This document shows, piece after piece, positions 16,204 through 29,135 of a stretch of 45,348 nt of DNA. Origin of the DNA: Gammaproteobacteria bacterium (GTDB taxonomy: Bacteria > Pseudomonadota > Gammaproteobacteria > Steroidobacterales > Steroidobacteraceae). Numbering within the stretch: the first letter of the stretch is position 1; every line of letters starts with the position of its first letter. The notes under the pieces are model-generated. The model ran no database searches. It saw nothing but the letters and a program-made list of their open reading frames with translations, and had not been told where the DNA came from. Made by a program: the position numbers and the translations under genes. The DNA is taken from the NCBI GenBank assembly GCA_027452045.1, contig DAIDHH010000152.1:1-45348 (forward strand), given 5' to 3'.

Positions 16204-17109
16204 TCAGTTGCGCCGCGCCAGCAGCCACTCGGTGACCGCCCGCAGCGGATCGGCGTTCTCGCCGAACGGTGCGAGCGATTCGAGCGCCTGCTGGTGCAGC
16301 CGGCGTACCCGCTCCTGCGAGGCGGGTATCCCGAGTATGGAAGGATGCGTGGACTTCTCGTGCGCGCGATCGGCGCCCGCGGCCTTGCCGAGCGTGGCCG
16401 TGTCGCCGAGCACATCGAGAAGATCATCCTGGATCTGGAAGGCGAGCCCGATCGGCCCGGCGAAGCCCGCGAGCGCGCGCTCGGCGGCCCGATCGAGCTG
16501 CGGCACGCACGCCGCGCCCATCATGACGCTGGCGCGGATCAGCGCCCCGGTTTTCAGCGAGTGCATCTGCTCGACCGCCTCGATGCCGAGCTTCGCTCCC
16601 TCGGATTCGAGGTCGATCGCCTGCCCGCCGGCCATCCCGAGGCTGCCGATGGCATCGGCGAGCAGGGCCACCAGATGCACCCGGACGGCCGGATCGGCAG
16701 GCAGCGATGGGTCGCGCGCAAGCAGCTCGAAGGCGAGCGACTGCAACGCATCGCCGACCAGGAGCGCGGTGGCCTCGTCGTACGCCTTGTGGCAGGTCGG
16801 GCGGCCACGGCGCAGATCATCATCGTCCATCGCCGGCATGTCATCGTGCACCAGCGAGTACACATGCACCAGCTCGAGCGCGCAGGCGGCGGCCTCGACC
16901 TGCTCCTCGTTCAACTTGAGGGTGCGCGCGGTGGCGAGGAGCAGAATCGGGCGCACGCGTTTGCCGCCGCCGAGCACGCTGTAGCGCATGGCGGCATGCA
17001 ACCGCTCGGGCAACACGTCCGCCCGCGGCAGGCGCCGCTCGAGCGCCCCCTCCATCCGCACGCGCCAGGCCTCGAGCTGCGCGCCGAATGTCTCAAGCGC
17101 CGCTGACAC
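16204..17109 (-). CDS. ispA: Farnesyl diphosphate synthase (IspA-type)
   Basis: The 301-residue short-chain trans-prenyl diphosphate synthase has the first Asp-rich motif DDMPAMD at residues 89-95 and the second QDDLLD at 227-232. GGGKRVRP (48-54) is the diphosphate-binding loop. The insertion in the first motif is typical of bacterial FPP synthases. It condenses DMAPP with two IPP to give FPP for the adjacent squalene synthase. Its start overlaps the hpnH end by 17 bp. Confidence 0.94.
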   Translation of the reverse strand: MSAALETFGAQLEAWRVRMEGALERRLPRADVLPERLHAAMRYSVLGGGKRVRPILLLATARTLKLNEEQVEAAACALELVHVYSLVHDDMPAMDDDDLRRGRPTCHKAYDEATALLVGDALQSLAFELLARDPSLPADPAVRVHLVALLADAIGSLGMAGGQAIDLESEGAKLGIEAVEQMHSLKTGALIRASVMMGAACVPQLDRAAERALAGFAGPIGLAFQIQDDLLDVLGDTATLGKAAGADRAHEKSTHPSILGIPASQERVRRLHQQALESLAPFGENADPLRAVTEWLLARRN

Positions 17110-18250
17110 GGCGGCCTTCCCGGTTCGCGCTGTTGCCCACCTTGTCGAGCGGAATGATCACCTCCGCTGGCCTCTCGGCCGTGAGCGCCGGCTCCTCGTA
17201 GAGGACCGGCAGGTCCGGGGCCATCGGGCCGGTGAGGCGCTGGCCGCGCAGCGAGGTCATGAGCGCCTTCAGGGGATGCGCGAAGGCATCGTTCACGGCC
17301 GTGCCCTCGTAGCCGCAGTGCGCCATGCAATTGTTGCACTTCGGATTGCGCCCGGCGCCGTAGCGCTCCCACGCGGTATCCTCGATGAGGGACTGGTAGC
17401 TCCCCGCATGGCCCTCGTCGGTGAGCAGATAGCAGGGCCGCTGCCAGCCGAAGATGTTGAAGGTCGGTGTGCTCCAGGGGGTGCACTGGTAGCTCTGATT
17501 GCCGGCCAGAAAATCGAGGAACAGGGACGAGTGATTGAACGACCAGCGGGCATGGCGCTCGCGGCCGCGCTTGAAGATCTCGCGAAACAACTGCTTGCTC
17601 GCGCTGCGGCCAAGGAACACGTCCTGACGGGGCGCGTGCTGGTAGCTGTAGCCCGGGGAGACGGTGATGCCCTCGACGCCGAGGGTCATCGCCATGTCGA
17701 AGAAATCGGCCACGTCGTCCGGGTTCTCCTGCTGGAACAGGGTGCAGTTGACCGTGACGCGAAACCCCTTGGAGCGGGCGAGGCGGATGGCGGCCACCGC
17801 CTTGTCGAACACCCCCTCCTGGCAGACCGACTCGTCGTGGCGCTCGCGGTTGCCGTCGAGGTGCACCGAGAAAGTGAGGTAGGGGGAAGGCCGGTACTCG
17901 TCGATGTGCTTGGAGAGCAGAATCGCGTTGGTGCAGAGGTACACGAAGCGCTTGCGCGCGACGATGCCCTCGACGATGCGCGGCATGTCCTTGTGGATGA
18001 GCGGCTCGCCGCCGGGGATCGAGACCATCGGCGCGCCGCACTCCTCCACGGCGCGCAGCGCGTCCTCCACCGACAGGCGCTTCTGCAGGATCTCCTTCGG
18101 ATAGTCGATCTTGCCGCAGCCGGCACAGGCGAGATTGCACTGGAACAGAGGCTCCAGCATCAGCACCAGGGGATAGCGCTTGACCCCCCGGAGCTTGCGC
18201 CCGAGGATGTACCGCGCGACCCGGTACTGTTGAATCAGAGGAATACCCAA
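17093..18250 (-). CDS. hpnH: HpnH, radical SAM adenosylhopane synthase
   Basis: The 385-residue radical SAM enzyme has the cluster motif CNLACAGC (Cys 38, 42, 45) followed by SIPGGEPLIHKD, the SAM-binding GGE. A C-terminal cysteine group, CNNCMAHCGYEG, follows near residue 305. HpnH adds the 5'-deoxyadenosyl radical to hopene to make adenosylhopane, the first side-chain step, and HpnG then acts. The gene order idi-hpnH-ispA-squalene synthase-shc-hpnG-hpnA covers precursor supply to C35 hopanoid. Confidence 0.95.
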   Translation of the reverse strand: MGIPLIQQYRVARYILGRKLRGVKRYPLVLMLEPLFQCNLACAGCGKIDYPKEILQKRLSVEDALRAVEECGAPMVSIPGGEPLIHKDMPRIVEGIVARKRFVYLCTNAILLSKHIDEYRPSPYLTFSVHLDGNRERHDESVCQEGVFDKAVAAIRLARSKGFRVTVNCTLFQQENPDDVADFFDMAMTLGVEGITVSPGYSYQHAPRQDVFLGRSASKQLFREIFKRGRERHARWSFNHSSLFLDFLAGNQSYQCTPWSTPTFNIFGWQRPCYLLTDEGHAGSYQSLIEDTAWERYGAGRNPKCNNCMAHCGYEGTAVNDAFAHPLKALMTSLRGQRLTGPMAPDLPVLYEEPALTAERPAEVIIPLDKVGNSANREGRRVSGA

Positions 18251-18315: not shown

Positions 18316-18927
18316 CTATCGTGCCGCCGCGCAACCCTCGAGCGCGCCGAGCGCCTGCCCGTGGTCCCGCCTGATCCGTTCCCATTCCAGCCTGAACCAG
18401 GGCGTGAAGCGCTCACCGCCCTCCTCGAGCATCTGCCCATCGAGCGCGCGCGGGCTCACCCAGCGCCAGGCCGCGATCTCCTCGCGGTTGACGCGCACGG
18501 GTTGCGAACTGCGCCCAATGTACACCGAGCACAGCTCATGCTCGGCCCCGGCACCGTCAAACTGTGCTTGATACTGGAATTTGAACAGGAAGTGCAATAG
18601 GCAATCGAGCCCGAGCTCCTCGTGCAGCCTCCGATGGATCGCGCTCTCCATGCTCTCGGCGCGCCGGGGATGACTGCAACAACTGTTCGACCAGTACAGC
18701 GGCCAGAGCCGCTTCGCCGCCGAGCGCTGCTGCATGAGCAGCTCGCCGCGATCATTGAAAATGAACAGCGAGAACGCCCGATGCAGCAGTCCGCTGCCCT
18801 CGTGGCAGCGGGAGCGGCTGGCATGGCCGACCTCGCGATCCGTCTCGTCCACCAGGATCAGCGCCTCCGCGCCAACCCCATTGTCGCACCCTGGCAACAT
18901 ATGCGGTTCACCGCCGTCCAGATCCAT
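18316..18927 (-). CDS. idi: Isopentenyl-diphosphate delta-isomerase, type 1
   Basis: The 203-residue Nudix-fold isomerase has the catalytic cysteine motif NSCCSHP (Cys 84 aligns with the E. coli active-site Cys), the Nudix-like RRLHEELG (about 99-106) and the acidic EHELC (about 139-143). It interconverts IPP and DMAPP. As first gene of the minus-strand hopanoid operon it would balance precursors for ispA. A start at Met 10 is also possible. A short hairpin GCCGGTC/GACCGGC (18271-18289) lies in the 65-base gap before hpnH. Confidence 0.93.
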   Translation of the reverse strand: MDLDGGEPHMLPGCDNGVGAEALILVDETDREVGHASRSRCHEGSGLLHRAFSLFIFNDRGELLMQQRSAAKRLWPLYWSNSCCSHPRRAESMESAIHRRLHEELGLDCLLHFLFKFQYQAQFDGAGAEHELCSVYIGRSSQPVRVNREEIAAWRWVSPRALDGQMLEEGGERFTPWFRLEWERIRRDHGQALGALEGCAAAR

Positions 18928-19079
18928 TATGCCACCCCTCGTGCACGCCCAACCGTGTACCCTATGCGCCGTTCATGGGCCTGAAATCCTCTGGCTCTCT
19001 CGCTCATGGAGCAGTCCGCAGCGTGGGGATGGTTTTGGACATGATAGCCGCCTCCACGTTCACTGTAACGAGTCCGAGC

Positions 19080-20249
19080 ATGACCGCCCTGGGTCTCTTC
19101 CTTGCCGCCGCCGCGCTGGGCTACCTGATCATTGCCTCAGTAGCGGTGACGTTTCAGCGCAACAAGACTTCCGCCACGCCTCCCGGCGCCTGGCGCCCGG
19201 TGACCGTGCTCAAGCCGCTGTGCGGGGCGGAGCAGCATCTTTACGAGGGCCTGCGCTCCCTGTGCCGGCAAGACTACCCGGAAGGGGTGCAGATTATATT
19301 CGGTCTGCAGGACGCGGCGGACCCCGCGCTCGAGAGCGTCCGCCGGCTCGAGCGGGAGTTTCCCGCGCTGGACATCGAGGTAGTGATCGACTCCCGCCGT
19401 CACGGTCACAGCGCCAAGGTCAGCAATCTCATCAATATGATGGGATCGGCCCGCCATGAGTGGCTGGTATTGGCCGACAGCGACGTGCACGTGCCGCCAG
19501 GCTATCTCACGGGGGTCTGCGCGCCCCTCGCGGACCCTCGGGTCGGCATCGTCACCTGCCCTTACAGGGGACGGCCTGCCCGCCTCCCGGGCGAGGCGAA
19601 GCTCTGGTCCGAGCTCGGTGCGCTGTTCGTGAACGACTGGTTCATGCCTTCGGTGCGGGTGGCGGCCTTGTTCGGCTCGCGCGCCTTCGCATTCGGGGCC
19701 ACCATCGCGCTGCGCCGCGACACGCTCGCCGCCATTGGAGGCTTTTCCGCCATCGCCGATCAGCTCGCCGACGACTATCGCATCGGTGAGCTCACCCGCC
19801 GGCTCGGCCTGACCACCGTGCTCTCGGACGTCGAGGTCGAGACCCTGGTCGATGAGCGCAGCTTCCGGCAGCTCGCGCTCCACGAGACCCGGTGGCTGCG
19901 GACCATCCGCGCGGTGCGCCCCGCCGGGTACGCCTCGGCGGGAGTGACCTTCGGCGTGCCGGTCGCCGCGCTCGGCTGCGCGCTCGCCGGGGGCCGGACG
20001 GCACTCACCCTTTTGGGCGCAACCGTGGCGGCCCGGGTAATGCTACATTTACTGGTTTACGCTCCAGAACCGGCCACGCAGGCTCCGGAATCGGACCATG
20101 CGAGGCCCTGGAGAAGGATTTTGGCGCTGGCGGCCGGCGATGTGCTCGGCTTTGCGCTCTGGTGCTGGGGTTTTGCGGCGCGGGACGTTCATTGGCGGCA
20201 GCAGCGCTACCGCGTGGCCCGCGACGGCTCGGCCCACCCGATTACCTGA
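19080..20249 (+). CDS. hpnI: HpnI, hopanoid glycosyltransferase
   Basis: The product is about 389 residues, a ceramide-glucosyltransferase-like family 21 enzyme. The N-terminal membrane segment starts immediately at the chosen ATG. The catalytic signature is D1 in FGLQDAADPAL, DSDVHVP as D2, D3 in the ADDYRIG loop, and RTIRAVRP for the (Q/R)xxRW-like element. HpnI adds N-acetylglucosamine to bacteriohopanetetrol. In-frame starts at 18975, 19029 and 19041 are possible; 19080 is chosen for the membrane segment, and none has a strong ribosome binding site. It opens the plus-strand operon hpnI-J-K-L, divergent from idi. Confidence 0.9.
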   Translation: MTALGLFLAAAALGYLIIASVAVTFQRNKTSATPPGAWRPVTVLKPLCGAEQHLYEGLRSLCRQDYPEGVQIIFGLQDAADPALESVRRLEREFPALDIEVVIDSRRHGHSAKVSNLINMMGSARHEWLVLADSDVHVPPGYLTGVCAPLADPRVGIVTCPYRGRPARLPGEAKLWSELGALFVNDWFMPSVRVAALFGSRAFAFGATIALRRDTLAAIGGFSAIADQLADDYRIGELTRRLGLTTVLSDVEVETLVDERSFRQLALHETRWLRTIRAVRPAGYASAGVTFGVPVAALGCALAGGRTALTLLGATVAARVMLHLLVYAPEPATQAPESDHARPWRRILALAAGDVLGFALWCWGFAARDVHWRQQRYRVARDGSAHPIT

Positions 20250-20259
20250 GGACGTACTC

Positions 20260-21684
20260 ATGATGAAGACGCTGTTTCTGCAAGCTCCGTCGTTCGACGG
20301 ATTCGACGGAGGCGCCGGCGCGCGCTACCAGGCCAAGCGCGAGATCCGCTCGTTCTGGTATCCGACGTGGCTCGCTCAGCCGGCGGCGCTCGTGCCGGGC
20401 AGCCGCCTGCTCGATGCCCCGGCCGACGGGCTGTCGATGGCCGACGTACTGCCGCTTGCGCGTCAATACGACCTCATCGTCATGCACACCAGCTCCCCCT
20501 CCTTTCCCACCGATGCCAAGGTGGCCGAGCTCCTGAAGGAGGAGAACCCGAAACTCCTCATCGGCATGGTGGGCGCGAAGGTGGCGGTGGACCCGGCGGG
20601 CTCCCTCGGAGCCTCGCGCGCCATCGATTTCGTGGCCCGCGAGGAGTTCGACTACACGCTGAAGGAAGTCGCCGAGGGGCGGCCCTTCGCCGACATCATG
20701 GGCCTCTCCTTCCGCAGGCCCGACGGACAGATCGAGCACAACCCCGCCCGGGCCATGATCGAGAACATGGACGATCTGCCGTGGGTGACTCCGGTCTATC
20801 AGCGCGACCTCACCATCGAGAACTACTTCATCGGCTACCTGCAGCACCCCTACGTATCGTTCTACACGGGACGGGGCTGCCGCTCGAAGTGCACCTTCTG
20901 CCTCTGGCCGCAGACCGTCGGCGGCCATCGCTACCGGGTGCGCAGCGCCCAGAGCGTCGTCGACGAGGTGCGCTGGATCAAGGAGAACATGCCGCAGGTG
21001 AAGGAGATCTTCTTCGACGATGACACCTTCACCGACTTTCGCCCGCGCGTGGAGGAGATCGCCCGCGGACTCGGCAAGCTCGGGGTCACCTGGTCGTGCA
21101 ACGCCAAGGCCAACGTCCCCTACGAGACGCTGAAGATCATGAAGGACAATGGCCTGAGGCTGCTGCTGGTCGGCTACGAGTCGGGCAACGATCAGATCCT
21201 GCACAACATCAGGAAGGGTCTGCGCACCGACATCGCGCGCCGCTTCACGAGCGACTGCCGCAAGCTCGGCATCACCATCCACGGCACCTTCATCCTCGGC
21301 CTGCCGGGTGAGACCAGCGACACCATCCGCGAGACCATCCAGTTCGCGATGGACATCAATCCGCACACCATCCAGGTCTCCCTCGCCGCCCCCTACCCCG
21401 GCACGCAGCTCTATGCCCAGGCGGTCGAGAATGGCTGGATCACCGCGCACGAGGACCTCAACCTGGTCAACGACCGCGGCGTGCAGCTCTCGCCCATCAG
21501 CTACCCGCACCTCTCGGCCAAAGAGATCTATCACGGGATCGAGACCTTCTACAAACGCTTCTACTTCCGGCCGCGCAAGATCGCCGAGCTCACCGGGGAG
21601 ATGCTGCGCAGCTGGGAGATGACCAAGCGGCGGCTGCGCGAGGGCGTGGAGTTCTTCCGCTTCCTGCGCGCGCACGAGGCATAA
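20260..21684 (+). CDS. hpnJ: HpnJ, radical SAM enzyme of the bacteriohopane cyclitol ether pathway
   Basis: The 474-residue B12-binding-domain radical SAM protein has a Rossmann-like N-terminal domain (about residues 1-180). The cluster motif GCRSKCTFC follows (Cys 207, 211, 214), and LLLVGYESGND lies in the barrel. HpnJ rearranges the glucosaminyl group on bacteriohopanetetrol to the cyclitol ether. The start ATGATG at 20260 lies 11 bases after the hpnI stop, with TGAGGA in between as a Shine-Dalgarno-like stretch. Confidence 0.94.
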   Translation: MMKTLFLQAPSFDGFDGGAGARYQAKREIRSFWYPTWLAQPAALVPGSRLLDAPADGLSMADVLPLARQYDLIVMHTSSPSFPTDAKVAELLKEENPKLLIGMVGAKVAVDPAGSLGASRAIDFVAREEFDYTLKEVAEGRPFADIMGLSFRRPDGQIEHNPARAMIENMDDLPWVTPVYQRDLTIENYFIGYLQHPYVSFYTGRGCRSKCTFCLWPQTVGGHRYRVRSAQSVVDEVRWIKENMPQVKEIFFDDDTFTDFRPRVEEIARGLGKLGVTWSCNAKANVPYETLKIMKDNGLRLLLVGYESGNDQILHNIRKGLRTDIARRFTSDCRKLGITIHGTFILGLPGETSDTIRETIQFAMDINPHTIQVSLAAPYPGTQLYAQAVENGWITAHEDLNLVNDRGVQLSPISYPHLSAKEIYHGIETFYKRFYFRPRKIAELTGEMLRSWEMTKRRLREGVEFFRFLRAHEA

Positions 21685-21730: not shown

Positions 21731-22603
21731 GTGAAGTTCCTGATCATCACCGCCGATGACTTCGGCCTGCATGAGGCCGTCAACGAGGCCGTGGAGACGG
21801 CCTTCCGCGAAGGCGTGCTCACCGCCGCGAGTCTTATGGTGGGCGCCCCCGCGGCCGCGGATGCCGTGCGGCGCGCGCGCGCGCTGCCCGGCCTTGCGGT
21901 CGGATTGCATCTGGTGCTCGCGGATGGACACTCGGTGTTGCCGCCCGAGCGCATCCCGGCGCTGGTCGATGCAGCGGGACGCTTCGGGGACCACATGGCG
22001 CTCCAGGGCTTGCGGTTCTTCGCGATCCCCGCCGTCCGCCGCCAGCTCGAGGCGGAGATCCGAGCCCAATTCGAGGCGTTCGCGGGCACGGGTCTGCCGC
22101 TCGACCATGTCAACGCCCACAAGCACTTCCACCTGCATCCGACACTGCTCGAGATGCTGCTCGGCATCGGGCGTGAGTTTGGACTGACGGCCGTGAGACT
22201 GCCGAGAGAGCCCGCCTGGGTCGCGCGCCGGGCGGGCCCGCTGAAGGGGGCGGCCTCGAGGCTGCTCGCGCCCTGGCTCGCCCTCATGAAGCGCCGTCTG
22301 CGCGCCGCGGGCATCGCCTGCAATGACCAGGTATTCGGAGTGACCGACAGCGGCGCAATGGACGAGGCGGCGTTGCTGCGCATCCTCTCGCGGCTGCCCG
22401 ACGGGGTGAGCGAAATCTATCTGCATCCGGCGACTCATGGGGCCCTGACGCCGGCCATGAGCCGATACCGCCACCGCGAGGAGCTCGAGGCGCTGCTCAG
22501 CCCCCGGGTGCGCGCAGCGCTTGCGGCCTCGGACGCGGCCACCGGAGGGTTCCGCGACCTGTTTGGGCCCCGCGCGTCCATGAAGGCATCGCGCGCCGCA
22601 TGA
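21731..22603 (+). CDS. hpnK: HpnK, hopanoid N-acetylglucosamine deacetylase (YdjC-like)
   Basis: The 290-residue YdjC-family carbohydrate deacetylase starts at GTG 21731. The metal-binding motif TADDFG is at residues 7-12, and the histidine-rich HVNAHKHFHLHP near residue 130 supplies further ligands. HpnK removes the acetyl group from N-acetylglucosaminyl-bacteriohopanetetrol, between HpnI and HpnJ. Its stop overlaps the hpnL start (ATGA at 22600-22603). Confidence 0.93.
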   Translation: MKFLIITADDFGLHEAVNEAVETAFREGVLTAASLMVGAPAAADAVRRARALPGLAVGLHLVLADGHSVLPPERIPALVDAAGRFGDHMALQGLRFFAIPAVRRQLEAEIRAQFEAFAGTGLPLDHVNAHKHFHLHPTLLEMLLGIGREFGLTAVRLPREPAWVARRAGPLKGAASRLLAPWLALMKRRLRAAGIACNDQVFGVTDSGAMDEAALLRILSRLPDGVSEIYLHPATHGALTPAMSRYRHREELEALLSPRVRAALAASDAATGGFRDLFGPRASMKASRAA

Positions 22604-23583
22604 GACTCGCCGTCCGCATCGCGCTCGTCGCCGGCCTCGCCCTGTTGATCGGACTCCTCGCCCACGAGGGGACCGCCATCCTGACGCCCCTCGCGCGCGC
22701 CGGCTGGGTGCTGCTGTGGCTCGTGCCGCTGCATATCCTGCCCATCGTGCTCGACTCGCGCGGCTGGCAGGCGCTGCTCGAGGAGCGGATACCACCGGGC
22801 ACGCTCTTCTGGATCGCGAGCGTCCGCGAGGCGGTCAACCGCCTGCTCCCGGTGGCCAACATCGGCGGCGAGCTCGCCGGCATCCGGCTGCTCGCCGCCC
22901 ACGGGACCGATGGCGTGGCGGCCGCGGCGAGCGTGACCACCGAGACGCTGCTCACCCTGTTCAGCCAATACCTGTTCGTCGCCCTGGGCATCTCCTGCCT
23001 GCTGCGCGTCACGCACACGGTGCATGCGGAGAGCGAGGCGCTGATCGGCCTCGGCGCGAGTCTGCCGGTGATCCTGCTCGCCGCCGTGCTGCTGCGCAAC
23101 GGCTCAGTGTTCGAGCGCCTGGAGAAGCTCGCGGTGCGGATGCTCGGTGAGGAGACGCTCAGCTTCCTCAACGGCAAGTCCGCGAGTCTCGATGCGGCCA
23201 TCCGCGCGCTCATCAACCAGCCCGCGCGCCTCCTCGGGACCCTCGGCTGGCAGTTTGCGGGGCTCCTCTCCTCGGTCATCGAGACCTGGCTCGCGCTGCG
23301 CTGGCTCGGGCATCCGGTGGGCTTCGGCGCGGCAATCGCCATCGAGAGCCTGACGCAGGTGGCGCGCAATTTCATCTTCCTGGTGCCCGCGGGACTTGGC
23401 GTTCAGGAGGCGACGCTCGTAGGTGTGGGACACCTGCTCGGCATCGACGGCGACCTGGCGCTCGCCTTGTCGCTCGCCAAGCGCATGCGGGAGATTCTCT
23501 TCGGGGCCCCGGCGTTGCTATCCTGGTACTGGATCGAAGGAAGAAAGGAGTTGCAACATGTCCGTGGTTCCAGCAGACCTTGA
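22600..23583 (+). CDS. hpnL: HpnL, multi-pass membrane protein of hopanoid clusters
   Basis: The 327-residue protein has about seven to eight hydrophobic helices and resembles the lysylphosphatidylglycerol-synthase transmembrane (YbhN-like) family. Recognisable elements are NIGGELAGIRLL and, near the C-terminus, FIFLVPAGLGVQEA. HpnL is conserved in hopanoid operons; transport or flipping of a hopanoid or sugar intermediate is inferred rather than proven. Start is by ATGA overlap with hpnK, and the 3' end overlaps the next gene by 26 bp. Confidence 0.91.
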   Translation: MRLAVRIALVAGLALLIGLLAHEGTAILTPLARAGWVLLWLVPLHILPIVLDSRGWQALLEERIPPGTLFWIASVREAVNRLLPVANIGGELAGIRLLAAHGTDGVAAAASVTTETLLTLFSQYLFVALGISCLLRVTHTVHAESEALIGLGASLPVILLAAVLLRNGSVFERLEKLAVRMLGEETLSFLNGKSASLDAAIRALINQPARLLGTLGWQFAGLLSSVIETWLALRWLGHPVGFGAAIAIESLTQVARNFIFLVPAGLGVQEATLVGVGHLLGIDGDLALALSLAKRMREILFGAPALLSWYWIEGRKELQHVRGSSRP

Positions 23584-24433
23584 GACCTCGACACCAAGGA
23601 TGGGATCGGCCGAGCACCGCCACCTCCTCGCGCGATTCTTCACCGACACGCACGTCGAGTACGTCCCCGAGAAGATCGACTGGCCGGCGCTCTCGGACGC
23701 CGAACTCGAGCGGCTGACCGGGCTCCCCTTCTGGCAGGAGGCCGTCTCGACCGAGAATGTCACATCCAACACGGTGGCCGCCGCCGCGGCGCTCGAGCCG
23801 GATGAGGCGCTGCGCGAGGCGATCGCGCTGCAGGGCTTCGAGGAGCAGCGCCACGCGCGGCTGCTGAAGGCGCTCACCGCCCATTACGGCATTGCCATCG
23901 AGGAGCCCCCGCCCTTCACCCCGCGCTCGCTCGAGCGCGACTTCCTGTTCGCGGGCTTCGGGGAGTGCTTCGATTCGTTCTTCGCGTTCGGCCTGTTCGC
24001 CCTGGCGCGCGAGTCGGGCTATTTCCCGGCCGCGCTCGTTGGCATCTTCGAGCCGGTGATGGAGGAGGAGGTGCGCCACATCCTCTTCTTCGTGAACTGG
24101 GTCGGGGCCCGCCGCGCGCAGCTGCCCTGGTGGAAGCGGCCCGCCTTCCGGGCGCGCTGCGCCTGGATCATCCTCGAGCAGGTCGCCTCCCGGGTGAGGA
24201 CCGCGCGCGCCCTGAGCCGCGCAGCGAAGCAGGACTCGCCGCAGCCCGGCGAGAACTTCACGCTGAGCGCCCACCAGGAGCTTGCCGCTCCGGTGACCCT
24301 GCATGGACTGCTCGGAAAGTGCCTCGAGGAGAACGAGCGGCGCATGTCCCGCTACGATGCGCGCCTCGCCCGGCCACGGCTCGTCCCGGGCATTGCCCGA
24401 GTGCTCTACCGGCTGCTGCCGGCCAGCCTCTGA
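23558..24433 (+). CDS. Ferritin-like diiron protein in the hopanoid operon
   Basis: The 291-residue protein starts at ATG 23558, with AAAGGAG 7 bases upstream lying inside hpnL. It carries a complete ferritin-like diiron ligand pattern: Glu 66, E96xxH99 in EEQRHARLL, Glu 136 in FGECFDSFF, and E171xxH174 in MEEEVRHILFF. No membrane segment or signal is evident, although Trp/Pro-rich WWKRP near 191 could contact membranes. Ferritin-like proteins with this ligand set include oxygenases, desaturases and aldehyde-deformylating enzymes. I do not recognise this family, but its overlap with hpnL argues for a hopanoid-related oxidation or deformylation step. It converges with the regulator gene 4 bases beyond. 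Confidence 0.85.
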   Translation: MSVVPADLETSTPRMGSAEHRHLLARFFTDTHVEYVPEKIDWPALSDAELERLTGLPFWQEAVSTENVTSNTVAAAAALEPDEALREAIALQGFEEQRHARLLKALTAHYGIAIEEPPPFTPRSLERDFLFAGFGECFDSFFAFGLFALARESGYFPAALVGIFEPVMEEEVRHILFFVNWVGARRAQLPWWKRPAFRARCAWIILEQVASRVRTARALSRAAKQDSPQPGENFTLSAHQELAAPVTLHGLLGKCLEENERRMSRYDARLARPRLVPGIARVLYRLLPASL

Positions 24434-24437
24434 GGGT

Positions 24438-26432
24438 TCACTCGCCAGCCCCACCCGGGGCCGGCGCCGGGCTGCGCAGCGCCCGGTAGATGGTGTTGCG
24501 GGAAACCCCGAGCGCGCGGGCTGCCGCCGAGACATTGCCGGCATGGCGCTCGAGCACCGCGGCGACCGCCGAAGCGCGCAACTCCCGCAACCTCACCCCG
24601 CCAGGGGCGGCCGCGGCCGGCGGTTGCCCCTGCGGCTCGGGCGCGGCGAGATCGTCGAGGAAATCCTCCGGCAGCTCGGCCCGGCCGATCGAGCCCTTCT
24701 CGGCCATGACGCCCGCAATGCGCAGCACGTTGGTGAGCTGGCGGATGTTGCCGGGCCAGCGGTAGCCCCGGAAGAGCGCGAGCACCTCGGGCGAGAGAGA
24801 GGGTGCGGCAGCGCACTGCGCGCTCAGGATCCGGCGGATCAGCGCCTCGAGATCGCTGCGCTCCCGGAGCGCGGGCAGGCGCACTACCAGGCCGTTCAGT
24901 CGATAGTACAGGTCCTCGCGGAACTCGCCGCGGCGCATCATGTCCTTCAGGTTGCGATGCGTGGCGCAGATGACCGCGATGTCGACATCGATCGGCCGCT
25001 GTCCGCCCAATGGGCGCACGGCGCGCTCCTGCAGCACGCGCAACAGTCGTGTCTGCAGCGCCAGGGGCATGTCGCCGATCTCATCGAGAAACAACGTCCC
25101 GCCGTTGGCGAGCAGGATCTTGCCGGGACTGCCCCGGCGGCGGGCACCGGTGAAGGCGCCCTCCTCGTAGCCGAAGAGCTCGGCCTCGATGAGCGACTCC
25201 GGGAGCGAGGCGCAGTCGACCGCGACGAAGGGTTGCTGCCGGCGCGCGGACTCGTTGTGGACGGCCTGCGCCAGGAGCTCCTTGCCCGTGCCGGTCTCCC
25301 CGAGAATGAGGATGGGAATGTCATGCGCCTGGACCTTGCGCACCTTGGCGAGCACCTCGGCGATGACCGGATCACCGCTGTCGAGATCGGCGAGCGTCGG
25401 GCCGCTCGTCTGTTTCCTCGGGGTGCGCGGGGCATCGGGGGCCGGCGACAGGCGTGCGCCGCGGGCCGTGGCGGGGCTCGCACCCTGCTCCGGCAGCCCC
25501 GGCTCGGCGCCGCAGAGCGGCTCGATTCCGCAGCTCGCCTCGGGGCGCGCCCGAAACTCGACCCGCCCCACCACGGGCGTGCCGTTGCGCAGGTGCAGGC
25601 GCAGCAGCGACTCGCCCCGGCATCTGCCGAGCAACACCCCGACAGCGACACCGAACAGGGACTCGAGGCTGTGCGCGGCCGCGCTCTCGGGGCCGATGCC
25701 AAGTTGCGTCAGGCCGCTCGGATTGGCGGCGAGGAACCGACCTCCCTCGTCGAAGGCGGCGATCCCCTCGAGCAGCGTCCCCATCAACTCCTGACGGCTG
25801 TGGAAGTGGATGCGCAGCGCCTCCCCGAAGCGATCGACGAACAGGTGGTTCTCGATCATCTGCGTGGACATGCGCACGAGCGCCATGGTGTGGGCGTGGT
25901 AGCTCTCCTCGGGCCCCGAGACATCGAGCGTCCCGATCACCTCGCCGCGCGGATCGCGGATGGGCGAGCACGAGCAGGTGAGAAAGCGGTTCACCGCGAG
26001 GAAATGCTCGCTCCCGTGCACCAGCGTGGCGCGGCGCTCGGTGAGGGCGGTGCCGATCGCGTTCGTCCCCTTGCTGTCCTCGGACCAGAGGACCCCGGGC
26101 TTGAGCGCCACTCGCTCGGCCTTCTCGAGGAAATCCGCGTCCCCGAGCGAGTGCACGATGAGCCCCCGCTGATCGGTGAGAATCACCATGCTGTGGGTGT
26201 TGCGGATCTGCTGGTGCAGCACCTCCATCACGGGCAGGGCGTGACGGTAGAGCGCGTGATGCTGGTCGACCAGCCTCGAGAGCTCGCCCCGCGCCAGCGC
26301 GCCGAAATCCGGCCGCTGCCGCTCGCTCAGCCCCAGGCGGCGCGCCCGCTCGTGCCAGAGCGATACGACCTTCGTGCGCTCGCCCGCCCCGGCGGGACGC
26401 GGCTCTTCAGCAGCAGCTGATTCAGACTTCAT
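24438..26432 (-). CDS. AcoR-type sigma-54-dependent transcriptional activator
   Basis: The 664-residue protein starts at ATG 26432 behind a G-rich ribosome binding site (TTG 26435 is the only close alternative). Domains are a GAF-like sensor (about 60-220, with SKGTNAIGTAL and CSCSPIRDPRGEVIG), a PAS-like region (about 220-310), a disordered linker, an AAA+ domain (Walker A GETGTGKE, EGAFTGA for sigma-54 contact, GGTLFLDEIGDM) and a Fis helix-turn-helix (NVSAAARALGVSRNTIYRAL). Relatives control alcohol, acetoin and quinoprotein genes. Its place next to the cytochrome/PQQ pair suggests it senses an alcohol or aldehyde and activates that cluster; this is inference. Confidence 0.92.
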   Translation of the reverse strand: MKSESAAAEEPRPAGAGERTKVVSLWHERARRLGLSERQRPDFGALARGELSRLVDQHHALYRHALPVMEVLHQQIRNTHSMVILTDQRGLIVHSLGDADFLEKAERVALKPGVLWSEDSKGTNAIGTALTERRATLVHGSEHFLAVNRFLTCSCSPIRDPRGEVIGTLDVSGPEESYHAHTMALVRMSTQMIENHLFVDRFGEALRIHFHSRQELMGTLLEGIAAFDEGGRFLAANPSGLTQLGIGPESAAAHSLESLFGVAVGVLLGRCRGESLLRLHLRNGTPVVGRVEFRARPEASCGIEPLCGAEPGLPEQGASPATARGARLSPAPDAPRTPRKQTSGPTLADLDSGDPVIAEVLAKVRKVQAHDIPILILGETGTGKELLAQAVHNESARRQQPFVAVDCASLPESLIEAELFGYEEGAFTGARRRGSPGKILLANGGTLFLDEIGDMPLALQTRLLRVLQERAVRPLGGQRPIDVDIAVICATHRNLKDMMRRGEFREDLYYRLNGLVVRLPALRERSDLEALIRRILSAQCAAAPSLSPEVLALFRGYRWPGNIRQLTNVLRIAGVMAEKGSIGRAELPEDFLDDLAAPEPQGQPPAAAAPGGVRLRELRASAVAAVLERHAGNVSAAARALGVSRNTIYRALRSPAPAPGGAGE

Positions 26433-26443
26433 CAACCCCCCTC

Positions 26444-26640: not shown

Positions 26641-27141
26641 TCATGGCGCGTTCGTCTTTGGCATGTCCAACGGCCTGCCCGCGTGCGCCCTCGACTTCGC
26701 AACCTTCGCAGGCGCTTTGAGCGCAGCCTGAAAGAGCAGCGGCACCGTGGAGGCGCTCGCGATCCGATCCGTCAGCGCCCTCGAGCCGGCCGGGTAACCG
26801 TTCTGCTGCAGGAGAAAGGCCGTGATGTCGAGGTATTGCGTGCGGGAGAGCGAGCCGGGCGCGTAGGCGGGCATCTCCACCGAGAGGAACTCGTAGATCT
26901 GCTGGATGGTGAAGCCCGATTTCGCCGAGGCGAAGACCGGGCCCTCGAGCGCCGGCCCCACGCCGCCTTCCAGGTGGTGCCCATGACACGAGGCGCATTT
27001 CCCCTCGAACGTCGAGGCGCCCTGGCGCGCCTGGGACTGCGTGTACAACGCGGGCGGCGGCGAGGCCGCCTTGCCGCGCTGCACGGGCAGCGCGGCAAGG
27101 AGAGCGGCCGAGAGGAATGCCTGTAACAGTCGGCCGGCCAC
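26641..27141 (-). CDS. Periplasmic cytochrome c paired with a PQQ dehydrogenase
   Basis: The 166-residue protein has an N-terminal signal (hydrophobic to about residue 20, cleavage near GKAAS) and one haem-binding CASCH in FEGKCASCHGHHLEGG. A likely axial Met lies in the VEMPAYAPG segment (about residue 90). It begins 6 bases after the stop of the PQQ dehydrogenase gene, so the two are cotranscribed. It would take electrons from the quinoprotein and pass them to the terminal oxidase chain. The C-terminal tail (APAKVAKSRAHAGR) is basic and looks disordered. Confidence 0.9.
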   Translation of the reverse strand: MAGRLLQAFLSAALLAALPVQRGKAASPPPALYTQSQARQGASTFEGKCASCHGHHLEGGVGPALEGPVFASAKSGFTIQQIYEFLSVEMPAYAPGSLSRTQYLDITAFLLQQNGYPAGSRALTDRIASASTVPLLFQAALKAPAKVAKSRAHAGRPLDMPKTNAP

Positions 27142-27147
27142 GGGGAT

Positions 27148-28863
27148 CTACCTCTTCAGCGAGAAGACATAGAGGTGTCCACCCCGCGGAACGTCGGCCA
27201 CCGCCTTGACCATCTCGCCCCCCCAGATCGGCGTCGCCCCGCCGTAGCCGGCGAGGATCGCGACGTACTGCGTACCATCCACCCGGTAGGTCACCGGCGG
27301 CGCGATGATGCCCGAGGAGAGCTTCGGACTCCTCCAGAGAACCGCACCCGTGTGCGCATCGAAGGCGAGCAGGTGTCCTCCCTCGGTGCCACTGAACACC
27401 AGTCCTCCGGCCGTGCTCATCGCACCGTCGTCCCAGGGTCGGGCGCTCTCGTGATCCCAGACTCGCTTGCCGGTATCGAGATCGAACGCCTGCAGGGCGC
27501 CCCAGTTCGAGTCGTTCGGGTCGTGCACGACCTTGAAGGTCTCCCCGAGATAAGCCAGTCCCGGCTTGTAGAACGTCGGAGCGCCCTTCATGGTCATGCA
27601 GGTATGGATCGTCGGCACGTACACCATGTGCGTGGCCGGATCGACCGAGGCCGGCCACCAGTTCTTGCCGCCGAGGAAGCTCGGGCAGGTAAAGATCTGC
27701 TTCTTGATCGTGGGCCGCGCCGCATCGTCCGTGTAGGGTAGCCCATCGCGAAAGCCGGCGACAGACATCGTGTGCGCGAACGGCACGGCATAGATCAGCT
27801 TGTGCGTGTCGCGATCGATCACATACAACCAGCCATTGCGGTCGGCGTGAACGATGGCCTGGTAACGCCGCCCGTGATAGGTCAGGCTCGTGATCATCGG
27901 CGTGTTGACGCCATCGTAGTCCCAGGAGTCATGCGGGGTGTACTGGTAGTACCACTTGCGCTTGCCGGTGCGCGGATCGAAGGCCTGCAGGGAATCGGTG
28001 AACAGGTTCTTACCCGGCCGCAGCGTGGCGAGCCACGGCCCGGGATTGCCGCCTCCCCAGAAGAGCGTGTCGCTCGCGGGATCGAAGGTGCCGGTGAGCC
28101 AGGCCGACCCGCCGCCATGCTGGTAAATCCCGCCTTTGGGCCAGGTATCGCTGCCCGGCTGCCCGGGCGAGGGGACCGTGTACTGGCGCCAGATTTCCCG
28201 TCCCGTCTTGGCATCGAGTGCCACGACGAAGTCGCGCGCGCCATACTCCCCGCCCGAGGTCCCGACGATCACCATGCCCTGCACGGTGAGCGGCGCGAGC
28301 GTCATGGCATATCCCACGTCCGCCGGCTTGATCTGCCTGCGCCACACGACCTTGCCGGTCTTCGCATCCAGCGCCACGACGTAGTTGTCCAGTGTCGCCA
28401 TGTAGACGTTGTTCCCGTAGAGTGCCACGCCACGGTTGACCACGTCGCAGCACACGGTTTTCAGTCCGACGCCGGTCAGATTCTCCTGGTACGTCCACAG
28501 CACTTTGCCGGTGACCGCATCGAAGGCGAGCAGGTGATCCTTCGGGGTCGTGACGAACAGGTACCGCCCATTGACGATCGGAGAGGCTTCGAAGCCCCGC
28601 TTCATGCCGATGTCGTAGTCCCACGCGAGCTTGAGGTCCGCCACGTTGCGCGAGTTGATCTGCCGGAACGGCGCGTAACTGTCGCCCGTGTAGTCGCGCA
28701 GGAACATCAGCCAGCCATTGTCGGTCGCGGCGTGCGCCAGGCGCGCATTGGTCACGGCCGGGTAGCCGGCGGCGAAGGCTCCCGCGAGCGGCGCCAGCAG
28801 GAGCGCCCAGAGGGCAAGCCGCCACAGGGAGCGCCGCGGAAGAAAGGGTTGAAACCTGGTCAT
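27148..28863 (-). CDS. PQQ-dependent alcohol dehydrogenase with lanthanide signature
   Basis: The 571-residue protein starts at ATG 28863, with GAGGGG about 9 bases upstream. A signal peptide runs to about residue 31. The beta-propeller quinoprotein domain has the vicinal Cys pair 138-139 (TVCCDVVN). Metal and active-site residues are Glu 206 (SGGEYG), Asn 273 (GGGNPGPW), catalytic Asp 315 and Asp 317 in HDSWDYDGVN. The Asp two residues after the catalytic Asp is the mark of lanthanide-dependent XoxF/ExaF-type enzymes; calcium enzymes have Ala or similar. It probably oxidises short alcohols in the periplasm with the adjacent cytochrome c. Metal and substrate need biochemical proof. Confidence 0.92.
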   Translation of the reverse strand: MTRFQPFLPRRSLWRLALWALLLAPLAGAFAAGYPAVTNARLAHAATDNGWLMFLRDYTGDSYAPFRQINSRNVADLKLAWDYDIGMKRGFEASPIVNGRYLFVTTPKDHLLAFDAVTGKVLWTYQENLTGVGLKTVCCDVVNRGVALYGNNVYMATLDNYVVALDAKTGKVVWRRQIKPADVGYAMTLAPLTVQGMVIVGTSGGEYGARDFVVALDAKTGREIWRQYTVPSPGQPGSDTWPKGGIYQHGGGSAWLTGTFDPASDTLFWGGGNPGPWLATLRPGKNLFTDSLQAFDPRTGKRKWYYQYTPHDSWDYDGVNTPMITSLTYHGRRYQAIVHADRNGWLYVIDRDTHKLIYAVPFAHTMSVAGFRDGLPYTDDAARPTIKKQIFTCPSFLGGKNWWPASVDPATHMVYVPTIHTCMTMKGAPTFYKPGLAYLGETFKVVHDPNDSNWGALQAFDLDTGKRVWDHESARPWDDGAMSTAGGLVFSGTEGGHLLAFDAHTGAVLWRSPKLSSGIIAPPVTYRVDGTQYVAILAGYGGATPIWGGEMVKAVADVPRGGHLYVFSLKR

Positions 28864-28980
28864 ACTCGTTGTTCCCCTCGGTTCTAAGGTTGTACGACCG
28901 GGACCGGCTTGCGCGCGGCCCGTCTTGAGGGATGAGCGTGCAAGCCTCATGCCACTGCGCGCGGCGCCGGCGATCCGGCC

Positions 28981-29007
28981 GCGGGCGTCAGTTGGAATGA
29001 CGCCCGC
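28981..29007. repeat. Perfect 10-bp inverted repeat, 7-nt spacer
   Basis: GCGGGCGTCA (28981-28990) and TGACGCCCGC (28998-29007) flank GTTGGAA. It lies about 120 bases upstream of the PQQ dehydrogenase start and could be an operator or a leader hairpin in that transcript. Confidence 0.5.
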
Positions 29008-29135
29008 ACACGAAACCCCATGCCGCGCCCCACCGCGGGGAATGCGGGACAAACAGCCCTCCGTCACCGCGAGCGGACGGCCATGGAGCCGCGGGCGGCG
29101 CGGCAACGGCCGAGCAAGTCATCATCGCCCCTTGC

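Follow-up and report, generated by a model that had tools for sequence, protein, structure and literature searches.

A diiron protein family accompanying hopanoid genes and its candidate role in side-chain hydroxylation of bacteriohopanepolyols

Introduction

Hopanoids are the bacterial counterpart of cholesterol. Diiron proteins of the ferritin-like kind include desaturases. R2lox carries its ligands in the pattern E, ExxH, E, ExxH, and the AcsF-type Mg-protoporphyrin cyclase performs an O2-dependent diiron C-H oxidation on a large lipophilic substrate.

On the hopanoid side, a lipid and genome survey of Alphaproteobacteria (November 2025; PMC12583986) states that no genes are known for making bacteriohopanepentols, hexols or unsaturated hopanoids, and it reports no pentol candidate near hpn clusters. 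In the hopanoid literature that we found, which was mostly open-access, there was no description of the diiron protein reported here. Here we describe such a family, starting from a gene directly after hpnL in a 45,348-nucleotide stretch of a member of the Steroidobacteraceae (referred to as the window). The family is a concrete candidate for the pentol and hexol genes that the survey states as missing (PMC12583986).

Results

Position of the diiron gene in the hpn operon

The five hpn genes of the window (hpnH, I, J, K and L) all passed their NCBIfam cut-offs, with hpnL scoring 294.5 bits against a cut-off of 195.65, and the gene order was found to be hpnI-hpnJ-hpnK-hpnL-diiron (Table 1). Divergently upstream of this operon lie hpnH and an IPP isomerase-like gene, and a sigma-54 regulator gene is placed convergently 3' of the diiron gene. 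For the 291-residue product of the diiron gene, no family match was found in Pfam or NCBIfam at E 0.1.

Table 1. Features of the window around the diiron gene.
Feature	Position	Strand	Remark
hpnH, adenosyl-hopene transferase	17093..18250	-	TIGR03470
hpnI, glycosyltransferase	18975..20249	+	TIGR03472
hpnJ, radical SAM	20254..21684	+	TIGR03471
hpnK, 4-bp overlap with hpnL	21731..22603	+	TIGR03473
hpnL	22600..23583	+	TIGR03476
AAAGGAG, ribosome-binding-like, within hpnL, 7 nt 5' of the diiron ATG	23544..23550	+	
26 bp shared by the end of hpnL and the start of the diiron gene	23558..23583	+	
Clade-A diiron protein gene	23558..24433 including stop	+	ATG at 23558, stop at 24433; 291 aa
E66 codon	23753..23755	+	predicted helix A ligand
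E96xxH99 codons	23843..23854	+	predicted helix B ligands
E136 codon	23963..23965	+	predicted helix C ligand
E171xxH174 codons	24068..24079	+	predicted helix D ligands

The initial annotation had placed the gene and its overlap with hpnL correctly. The overlap was exactly 26 bp in 28 of the 29 gammaproteobacterial loci that contained hpnL and a start-aligned diiron match, while that of L012 was 20 bp (L029 and L031 were not measurable); the constancy of this length across loci rules out chance. A purine-rich stretch at the position of the AAAGGAG motif was also seen in the related loci displayed. We infer from the overlap that translation of the diiron gene is probably coupled to that of hpnL. 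As far as seen, the overlap is restricted to the gammaproteobacterial arrangement. No redox partner gene was recognised by eye among the displayed neighbours of the diiron genes.

Ligand set and predicted fold

The putative ligands E66, E96xxH99, E136 and E171xxH174 are exactly those written in the initial annotation. All six were invariant in 41/41 sequences of a first alignment, which omits the short or deleted copies L030, L031, L037 and L040. They were also invariant in all 97 rows of a wider alignment, in which at least five rows are the same gene fetched twice and from which three rows are omitted (L083, a 2-residue extraction, and the 623-residue fused protein of G441, twice). Loss of the ligands in orthologues, which had been named in advance as evidence against the idea, was therefore absent from these rows and present in a single MAG: the copy of a close relative (L037) has an in-frame internal deletion of about residues 82-158, in which E96, H99 and E136 are gone, and this is either a natural loss or an assembly fault. 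S140 is conserved as Ser in 90 of the 97 rows and replaced by Ala in the other 7, all of them clade-B rows from Acetobacteraceae (clades A and B are described below).

One stop codon was present within the matched stretch in the carriers G345, G513, G521, G917 and G998, and the diiron copy of G538 was split into two pieces; we count these copies against the hydroxylase reading proposed in the Discussion.

A structure prediction, which had been proposed as a check on the initial idea, gave an R2-like model: AlphaFold2, supplied with 40 sequences, returned a pLDDT of 87 and a pTM of 0.84. In the model, the putative ligands are located on the helices H59-79, H83-109, H125-153 and H165-187. The protein is accordingly predicted to present E, ExxH, E and ExxH on a four-helix bundle, as in the ferritin-like carboxylate-bridged diiron superfamily, and to be soluble and helical with carboxylate and His ligands. 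Structural comparison with VIA-align revealed R2lox as the top match, with a Z-score of 14.6, and R2 proteins tied just below it, with Z-scores of about 14. The best Foldseek match was an R2 with an E-value of 1.8e-3, and none reached E 0.001. A Z-score near 14 is by itself modest for helical bundles; taken together with the matching ligand pattern, we take it to suggest an R2-type site.

These matches raise the question whether the gene simply encodes an R2 of ribonucleotide reductase or a homologue of R2lox and accompanies the hpn genes by chance, a reading to which we assign almost no probability. In sequence, the sole phmmer match of the window protein in the PDB at an E-value of 10 or below was R2lox 3ee4 (E 0.14). 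A 40-row profile gave nothing significant against the PDB: R2 chains had E-values of 0.74 and 0.98 and ranked below an unrelated entry, 2fzf, with 0.45. Curated R2 models (NCBIfam, Pfam) gave no match to the window protein at E 0.1 and did not figure in the family matches of 17 and of 40 members. The column four residues after the first ligand His, which we take to be the Tyr position of classical R2, is Leu or Ile in 97/97 rows; some R2 classes are without that Tyr. Likewise, no Tyr is present in any of the 97 rows at column 131, presumably the site of the Tyr of the R2lox Val-Tyr ether cross-link beside the metal site, and column 69 is Thr or Ala. The lack of curated R2 matches and the nesting of the gene in HpnH-positive genomes speak against this reading, as may the Leu or Ile column, and R2 or R2lox proper was rejected.

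Distribution of the family among hopanoid producers

In a sample of 398 Pseudomonadota genomes, the diiron gene was found in 14 and HpnH over its cut-off in 49, and all 14 carriers were HpnH-positive. Each carrier had a near full-length match of more than 340 bits, and no genome had just a weaker match at E 0.001; the scan used a 17-row alignment and scored at most five candidates per genome, and may therefore overlook an additional, weaker copy. The Reyranellaceae gave the same picture, with the gene in 14/61 and HpnH in 15/61 genomes, 14/14 carriers HpnH-positive and one genome (G503) having HpnH without the gene. In f61, the family of G319, which is taken as Sphingomonadaceae by inference only, 3/149 genomes carried the gene and 16 carried HpnH, and the carriers were HpnH-positive in 3/3 cases. 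The association of carriers with HpnH has p-values of 3e-14 (Pseudomonadota), 7e-13 (Reyranellaceae) and 1e-3 (f61), uncorrected for kinship.

In the order of the window, the gene occurred in 3/97 genomes, which are three of the four with HpnL over cut-off. Among Acetobacteraceae it was found in 77/150 genomes; the HpnH co-occurrence covers the three samples above. A genome survey of Acetobacteraceae reports hopanoid genes in all of its strains (PMC8776678). One strain of Burkholderia cenocepacia carries clade A; family f34 is called Burkholderiaceae from its tree position beside L089 and L090, and the 16S sequence of G390 is nearest to Cupriavidus (92-93%).

No clade A gene was found in 198 genomes of f64, using an alignment that does match in the window's order, Pseudomonadota, Reyranellaceae, f61 and Acetobacteraceae. 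The f64 genomes in the Pseudomonadota sample were HpnH-positive in 10/11 cases. We assign f64 to Hyphomicrobiales because the 16S sequence of its member G131 is nearest to Methylosinus, Bosea, Neorhizobium and Methylobacterium (91-92%).

The family was thus found only in HpnH-positive genomes across three samples, which is strong evidence that it accompanies hopanoids. This supports the earlier proposal of a diiron-type protein dedicated to hopanoid metabolism, and a wide occurrence of homologues without hopanoid genes, which would have spoken against it, was not seen: all carriers in the three samples were HpnH-positive, and 37/40 loci had hpn genes in reach. The gene occurs with hopanoids yet only in some producers, and therefore represents a tailoring trait. 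In particular, 35 of the 49 HpnH-positive Pseudomonadota genomes are without it, so that it would tailor the core lipid and not build it. The suggested role around the ribosyl/formyl intermediate is unsupported for the same reason, because no producer of extended hopanoids can do without this step, and a role in the core pathway was rejected.

Genomic neighbourhood

A pattern scan of species genomes, with patterns derived from the window protein, yielded 40 loci. Either hpnK or hpnL was present on the same locus in 32 of them, and hpnN or hpnA in 5 more (Reyranella and Rhodospirillales records); the three loci showing no hpn gene were L030, L033 and L040, of which L030 and L040 are partial copies. 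In all three f61 carriers, the order was hpnI-J-K-diiron, with the gene directly after hpnK. In Reyranella (L035), an A/B pair is flanked by hpnN and hpnA, as named by NCBIfam, and the hpnD of this locus was confirmed. HpnM and IspH labels are a reading of open reading frames, and the 'HpnM' of L035 had no NCBIfam match at E 1e-30. In G235 (L066), the hpn cluster has the two paralogues at its two ends, A adjacent to hpnA and B adjacent to hpnN, and hpnI, hpnJ and hpnK were not recognised in the 19.9 kb read. The diiron gene is therefore a member of hpn operons in two classes.

The gene sits inside the hpn cluster in several lineages and away from it in many others. Of 15 carrier regions read, 10 had no recognisable hpn gene in the surrounding 7-10 kb or so (one region, L061, is a contig of 3.5 kb), and the same applies to the further Acetobacteraceae regions L273 and L274; such isolation weighs against the hydroxylase reading proposed in the Discussion. 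A need for the hpnL overlap was rejected, as the f61 gene follows hpnK and 10/15 regions are without a nearby hpn gene.

These isolated copies, together with a core pathway that does not require the gene, would also suit an accessory diiron or ferritin-like protein with no part in hopanoid chemistry, serving in oxidative protection or sensing at hopanoid-rich membranes. We consider this very unlikely: the catalytic-type ligand set is complete in 97/97 rows of a family with an R2-like model, the operon position is among tailoring genes, and the division into A and B with their fusions, described below, suits sequential catalysis better.

In f61 and in the kin of the window, the gene comes after hpnI-J-K(-L), which would also agree with another O2-dependent side-chain oxidation on a tailoring branch. 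Examples are the formation of a C-32 ketone as a step to pentols or to 31-methyl hopanoids, and an oxidation acting on the sugar or cyclitol. A 32-oxo route to pentols has been proposed (PMC12583986), and the genomic evidence sets the pathway and not the carbon. However, the G235 gene is located in an hpn cluster with hpnI, hpnJ and hpnK unrecognised, and a sugar is therefore unlikely to be the sole substrate. Overall, we regard such an alternative oxidation as a rather unlikely possibility that nevertheless carries some weight.

Paralogues A and B

A tree of 76 rows divided the family into two clades, A and B, with an SH-aLRT support of 100. The tree was built by a quick method with a midpoint root, its long end branches (L057, L056, L033 and others) are flagged, and 21 of the 97 rows had been dropped beforehand, namely 20 close kin of the window and the Acetobacteraceae row L054. 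Clade A comprises the window, Burkholderiaceae, f61, Acetobacteraceae, Reyranella and single rows of f37, f57 and f101, whereas clade B contains only Reyranella, Acetobacteraceae and the alphaproteobacterial L033.

Each of 138 places in 101 genomes was then typed as A or B according to which of 8 A and 5 B proteins gave it the highest tblastn score. This set consists of the Reyranellaceae and Acetobacteraceae matches, apart from short fragments (two in the Acetobacteraceae family f66 and four of G547), and of the remaining carriers that do not belong to the genus of the window; the G538 fragments count as one place. B was present in 33 genomes, all 33 of which also had A; A without B was present in 68, and the typing was unambiguous at every place. 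Among the 15 HpnH-positive Reyranellaceae, 14 had A and 11 had both. A and B were adjacent in 19/22 Acetobacteraceae genomes with both, such as Asaia bogorensis (G1021), and were fused in a single open frame in two (G441 and G888). This nesting, adjacency and fusion fits two successive steps on one substrate.

Lipid phenotypes and gene distribution

The survey of Alphaproteobacteria allows the gene distribution to be set against lipid data, although genotype and phenotype come from different strains. By our own count from its Table 3 (PMC12583986), pentol plus hexol account for 5-90% in 13/20 Rhodospirillales and 6/8 Sphingomonadales producers and for 0-1% in 19/19 Hyphomicrobiales producers, and pentol accounts for 15-90% in 6 of the 8 BHPD-producing Sphingomonadales strains. 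Unsaturated BHPDs make up 49-82% in 7/10 Acetobacteraceae strains, 37% in Skermanella, 43% in Afipia broomeae, which has 0% pentol, and 0-1% in Sphingomonadales producers. In Enhydrobacter aerosaccus, which the survey places nearest Reyranella, pentol and hexol together reach 77% and unsaturated forms 1% (PMC12583986). Together with Nitrospirillum amazonense and Sphingomonas mali, it belongs to the strains that combine 0-1% unsaturation with 44-90% pentol plus hexol, and the four Methylobacterium or Methylorubrum strains of Table 3 have 0% pentol. Its comparison with the Reyranellaceae, where both paralogues are frequent (11/15 HpnH-positive genomes), is the clearest single point, being a comparison with related genomes and not with the same strain.

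The distribution of the gene (Acetobacteraceae, Reyranella, some f61 and 0/198 f64) resembles that of pentols more than that of unsaturation, and the distribution of A and B resembles that of pentol versus hexol. For other strains of Burkholderia cenocepacia than the carrier, both pentol and unsaturated cyclitol ethers have been annotated among the lipids (PMC8560942); this species, matched at species level only, therefore does not discriminate pentol from unsaturation. Against the pentol reading, A was present in 3/16 HpnH-positive f61 genomes versus 6/8 pentol makers among Sphingomonadales producers (Fisher p 0.021), a comparison of different species that is not decisive. Either other species were drawn, or f61 is misassigned, or a second pentol enzyme occurs there.

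We also considered ring desaturation of hopanoids, in which the double bonds of unsaturated bacteriohopanepolyols would be introduced by A at delta-6 and by B at delta-11. Such enzymes exist among ferritin-like diiron proteins, as noted above. The Acetobacteraceae, in which A and A plus B are common, are rich in unsaturated BHPDs, the carrier species B. cenocepacia makes compounds annotated as unsaturated besides its pentol forms, and both traits are without assigned enzymes (PMC12583986 and PMC8560942). However, the Sphingomonadales producers are nearly free of unsaturated forms although 3/16 HpnH-positive f61 genomes carry A after hpnK, and E. aerosaccus has hardly any although A plus B predominate in HpnH-positive Reyranellaceae. 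A. broomeae is rich in them, but A is absent from all 198 genomes of f64, which may or may not hold Afipia. Additionally, unsaturation already has candidate enzymes among membrane proteins of the 'sterol desaturase' type (PMC6460317 and PMC12583986). The gene of this kind proposed for unsaturation is present in about two thirds of Rhodospirillales, half of Sphingomonadales and no Hyphomicrobiales of the survey (PMC12583986), a distribution that would fit pentols as well and so counts against the pentol reading of the diiron family. Taken together, desaturation by the diiron family appears improbable.

Discussion

The family described here is very probably a hopanoid-dedicated diiron oxidase or oxygenase, and its standing as a hopanoid-dedicated diiron family, new relative to the literature found, is strongly supported. 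The initial annotation had offered an oxygenase, a deformylase or a desaturase; a putative tailoring oxygenase is favoured here, a desaturase keeps the small probability given above, and nothing was found that speaks for a deformylase.

As the best single reading, we propose that the two paralogues are side-chain hydroxylases, A leading to pentol and B to hexol, which has a little under an even chance of being correct. Clade A would be a hopanoid-dedicated oxygenase, soluble and R2-like with a carboxylate-bridged diiron centre, that binds the polyhydroxylated side chain of bacteriohopanetetrol, either free or en route to the cyclitol ether. O2 would be activated at the E66/E96/H99/E136/E171/H174 site, and a hydroxyl would be inserted at C-31, the CH2 next to the tetrol, to give bacteriohopanepentol. 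That bacteriohopanepentol is the clade A product is a prospect of nearly even odds. Clade B, as an ancient paralogue, would act one carbon further along, at C-30, where an added hydroxyl would yield bacteriohopanehexol. With slightly lower odds, A and B would be the two long-sought BHP side-chain hydroxylases and the fusion of some acetic acid bacteria would be one two-site enzyme. What the analysis shows is the ligand set, the R2-like model, the restriction to HpnH-positive genomes in three samples, the operon membership in two classes, the nesting of B within A and the A-B fusions; the bound metal, the use of O2, the substrate, the carbon hydroxylated and the electron donor are proposed.

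If hydroxylation by A and B is correct, a gene marker becomes available for sediment hopanes that stem from pentols and hexols, and it would at the same time mark penta- and hexafunctionalised hopanoids as having arisen with the help of O2. Pentols and hexols would require oxygen wherever the diiron route is used, and the proteins would form a new family of diiron C-H hydroxylases.

Two points speak against an O2-dependent hydroxylase. Anaerobic sulphate reducers make extra-hydroxylated side chains. Rhodopila, a phototroph able to grow without O2, makes a pentol cyclitol ether (PMC8590665, with the culture condition of the LC-MS sample unstated). An O2-free route may therefore exist.

Comparison with known systems

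To place the family among known diiron systems, we compared it with R2lox, AurF, the AcsF-type cyclase and the other hopanoid tailoring enzymes. The R2lox likeness consists of an R2-type fold across most of residues 18-279, with Z-scores of 14.0-14.6 for many entries at 11-12% identity, and of the shared ligand pattern E, ExxH, E, ExxH. In contrast, the sequence link is at E 0.14, and the diiron family occurs with hopanoid genes. A weak sequence kinship to O2-using diiron enzymes, AurF and the AcsF-type cyclase, agrees with the oxygenase reading. The AurF family of N-oxygenases (PF11583) gave weak matches in 11/17 members, with a best E-value of 6.6e-4, but the window protein had no match up to E 1. 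The column that presumably corresponds to the third His ligand of AurF, four residues before the last ExxH, is Val in 72, Leu in 23 and Ile in 2 of the 97 rows. The AcsF-type cyclase gave weak NCBIfam matches in 5/40 members, with a best E-value of 5.9e-4, but none to the window protein, and it belongs to another pathway and another genomic setting.

The 'sterol desaturase' candidates of the FAH family resemble the diiron family in that they, too, are proposed, putative hopanoid tailoring enzymes (PMC6460317 and PMC12583986). The candidate described in PMC6460317 is an integral membrane protein with His-rich motifs, whereas the diiron protein is predicted to be soluble. Finally, hpnI, hpnJ, hpnK, hpnL, hpnR and hpnP differ from the diiron family, which has no hpn name, in that their chemistry is of the radical SAM or glycosyl transfer kind and not of the predicted diiron kind; like it, they accompany the core pathway and are often found in or near the hpn cluster.

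Surroundings of the operon in the window

The GAF/sigma-54 activator is followed by two ORFs whose cytochrome c-like and PQQ-dehydrogenase-like names were assigned by eye from the translations only, and the IPP isomerase-like gene, which was also found in many gammaproteobacterial loci, was likewise named by reading its translation. The window's own genome contained a second HpnL above the family cut-off, and two HpnL copies were also present in two genomes of the window's genus.

Positions of the features described
Feature	Position	Strand	Remark
GAF/sigma-54 activator, then short cytochrome c-like ORF and PQQ-dehydrogenase-like ORF	window 24438-26435 and 26641-29106	-	activator convergent with operon
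IPP isomerase-like gene	window 18316-18927	-	between hpnH and hpnI
Second HpnL	G000:C107:630-1574
B-A tandem pair	L033:5479-7393
Diiron gene with deletion	L037:10001-10585
Partial diiron copies	L030:4954-5622; L040:10001-10288

Variants and absence of the diiron gene

In two Acetobacteraceae loci, L070 (G441) and L272 (G888), a single unbroken open frame held a diiron domain of each clade, and the product of this A-B fusion is apparently a two-site protein. A B-A tandem pair was found on an alphaproteobacterial contig of 9.9 kb (L033), on which no hpn genes were recognised.

In a close relative of the window (L037), the diiron gene lacked an internal stretch, residues about 82-158, with the reading frame kept, so that three of the predicted ligands, E96, H99 and E136, are missing; this may be either a natural loss or an assembly fault. 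The diiron copies at L030 and L040, in two MAGs from one study (RYN_606 and RYN_607), were partial, and no hpn neighbours of these copies were recognised.

The diiron match was absent from G058 (L075), although hpnI-J-K-L and hpnH were present, and from the Reyranellaceae genome G503, which has hpnH. These two genomes provide natural minus-gene comparisons for lipid work.
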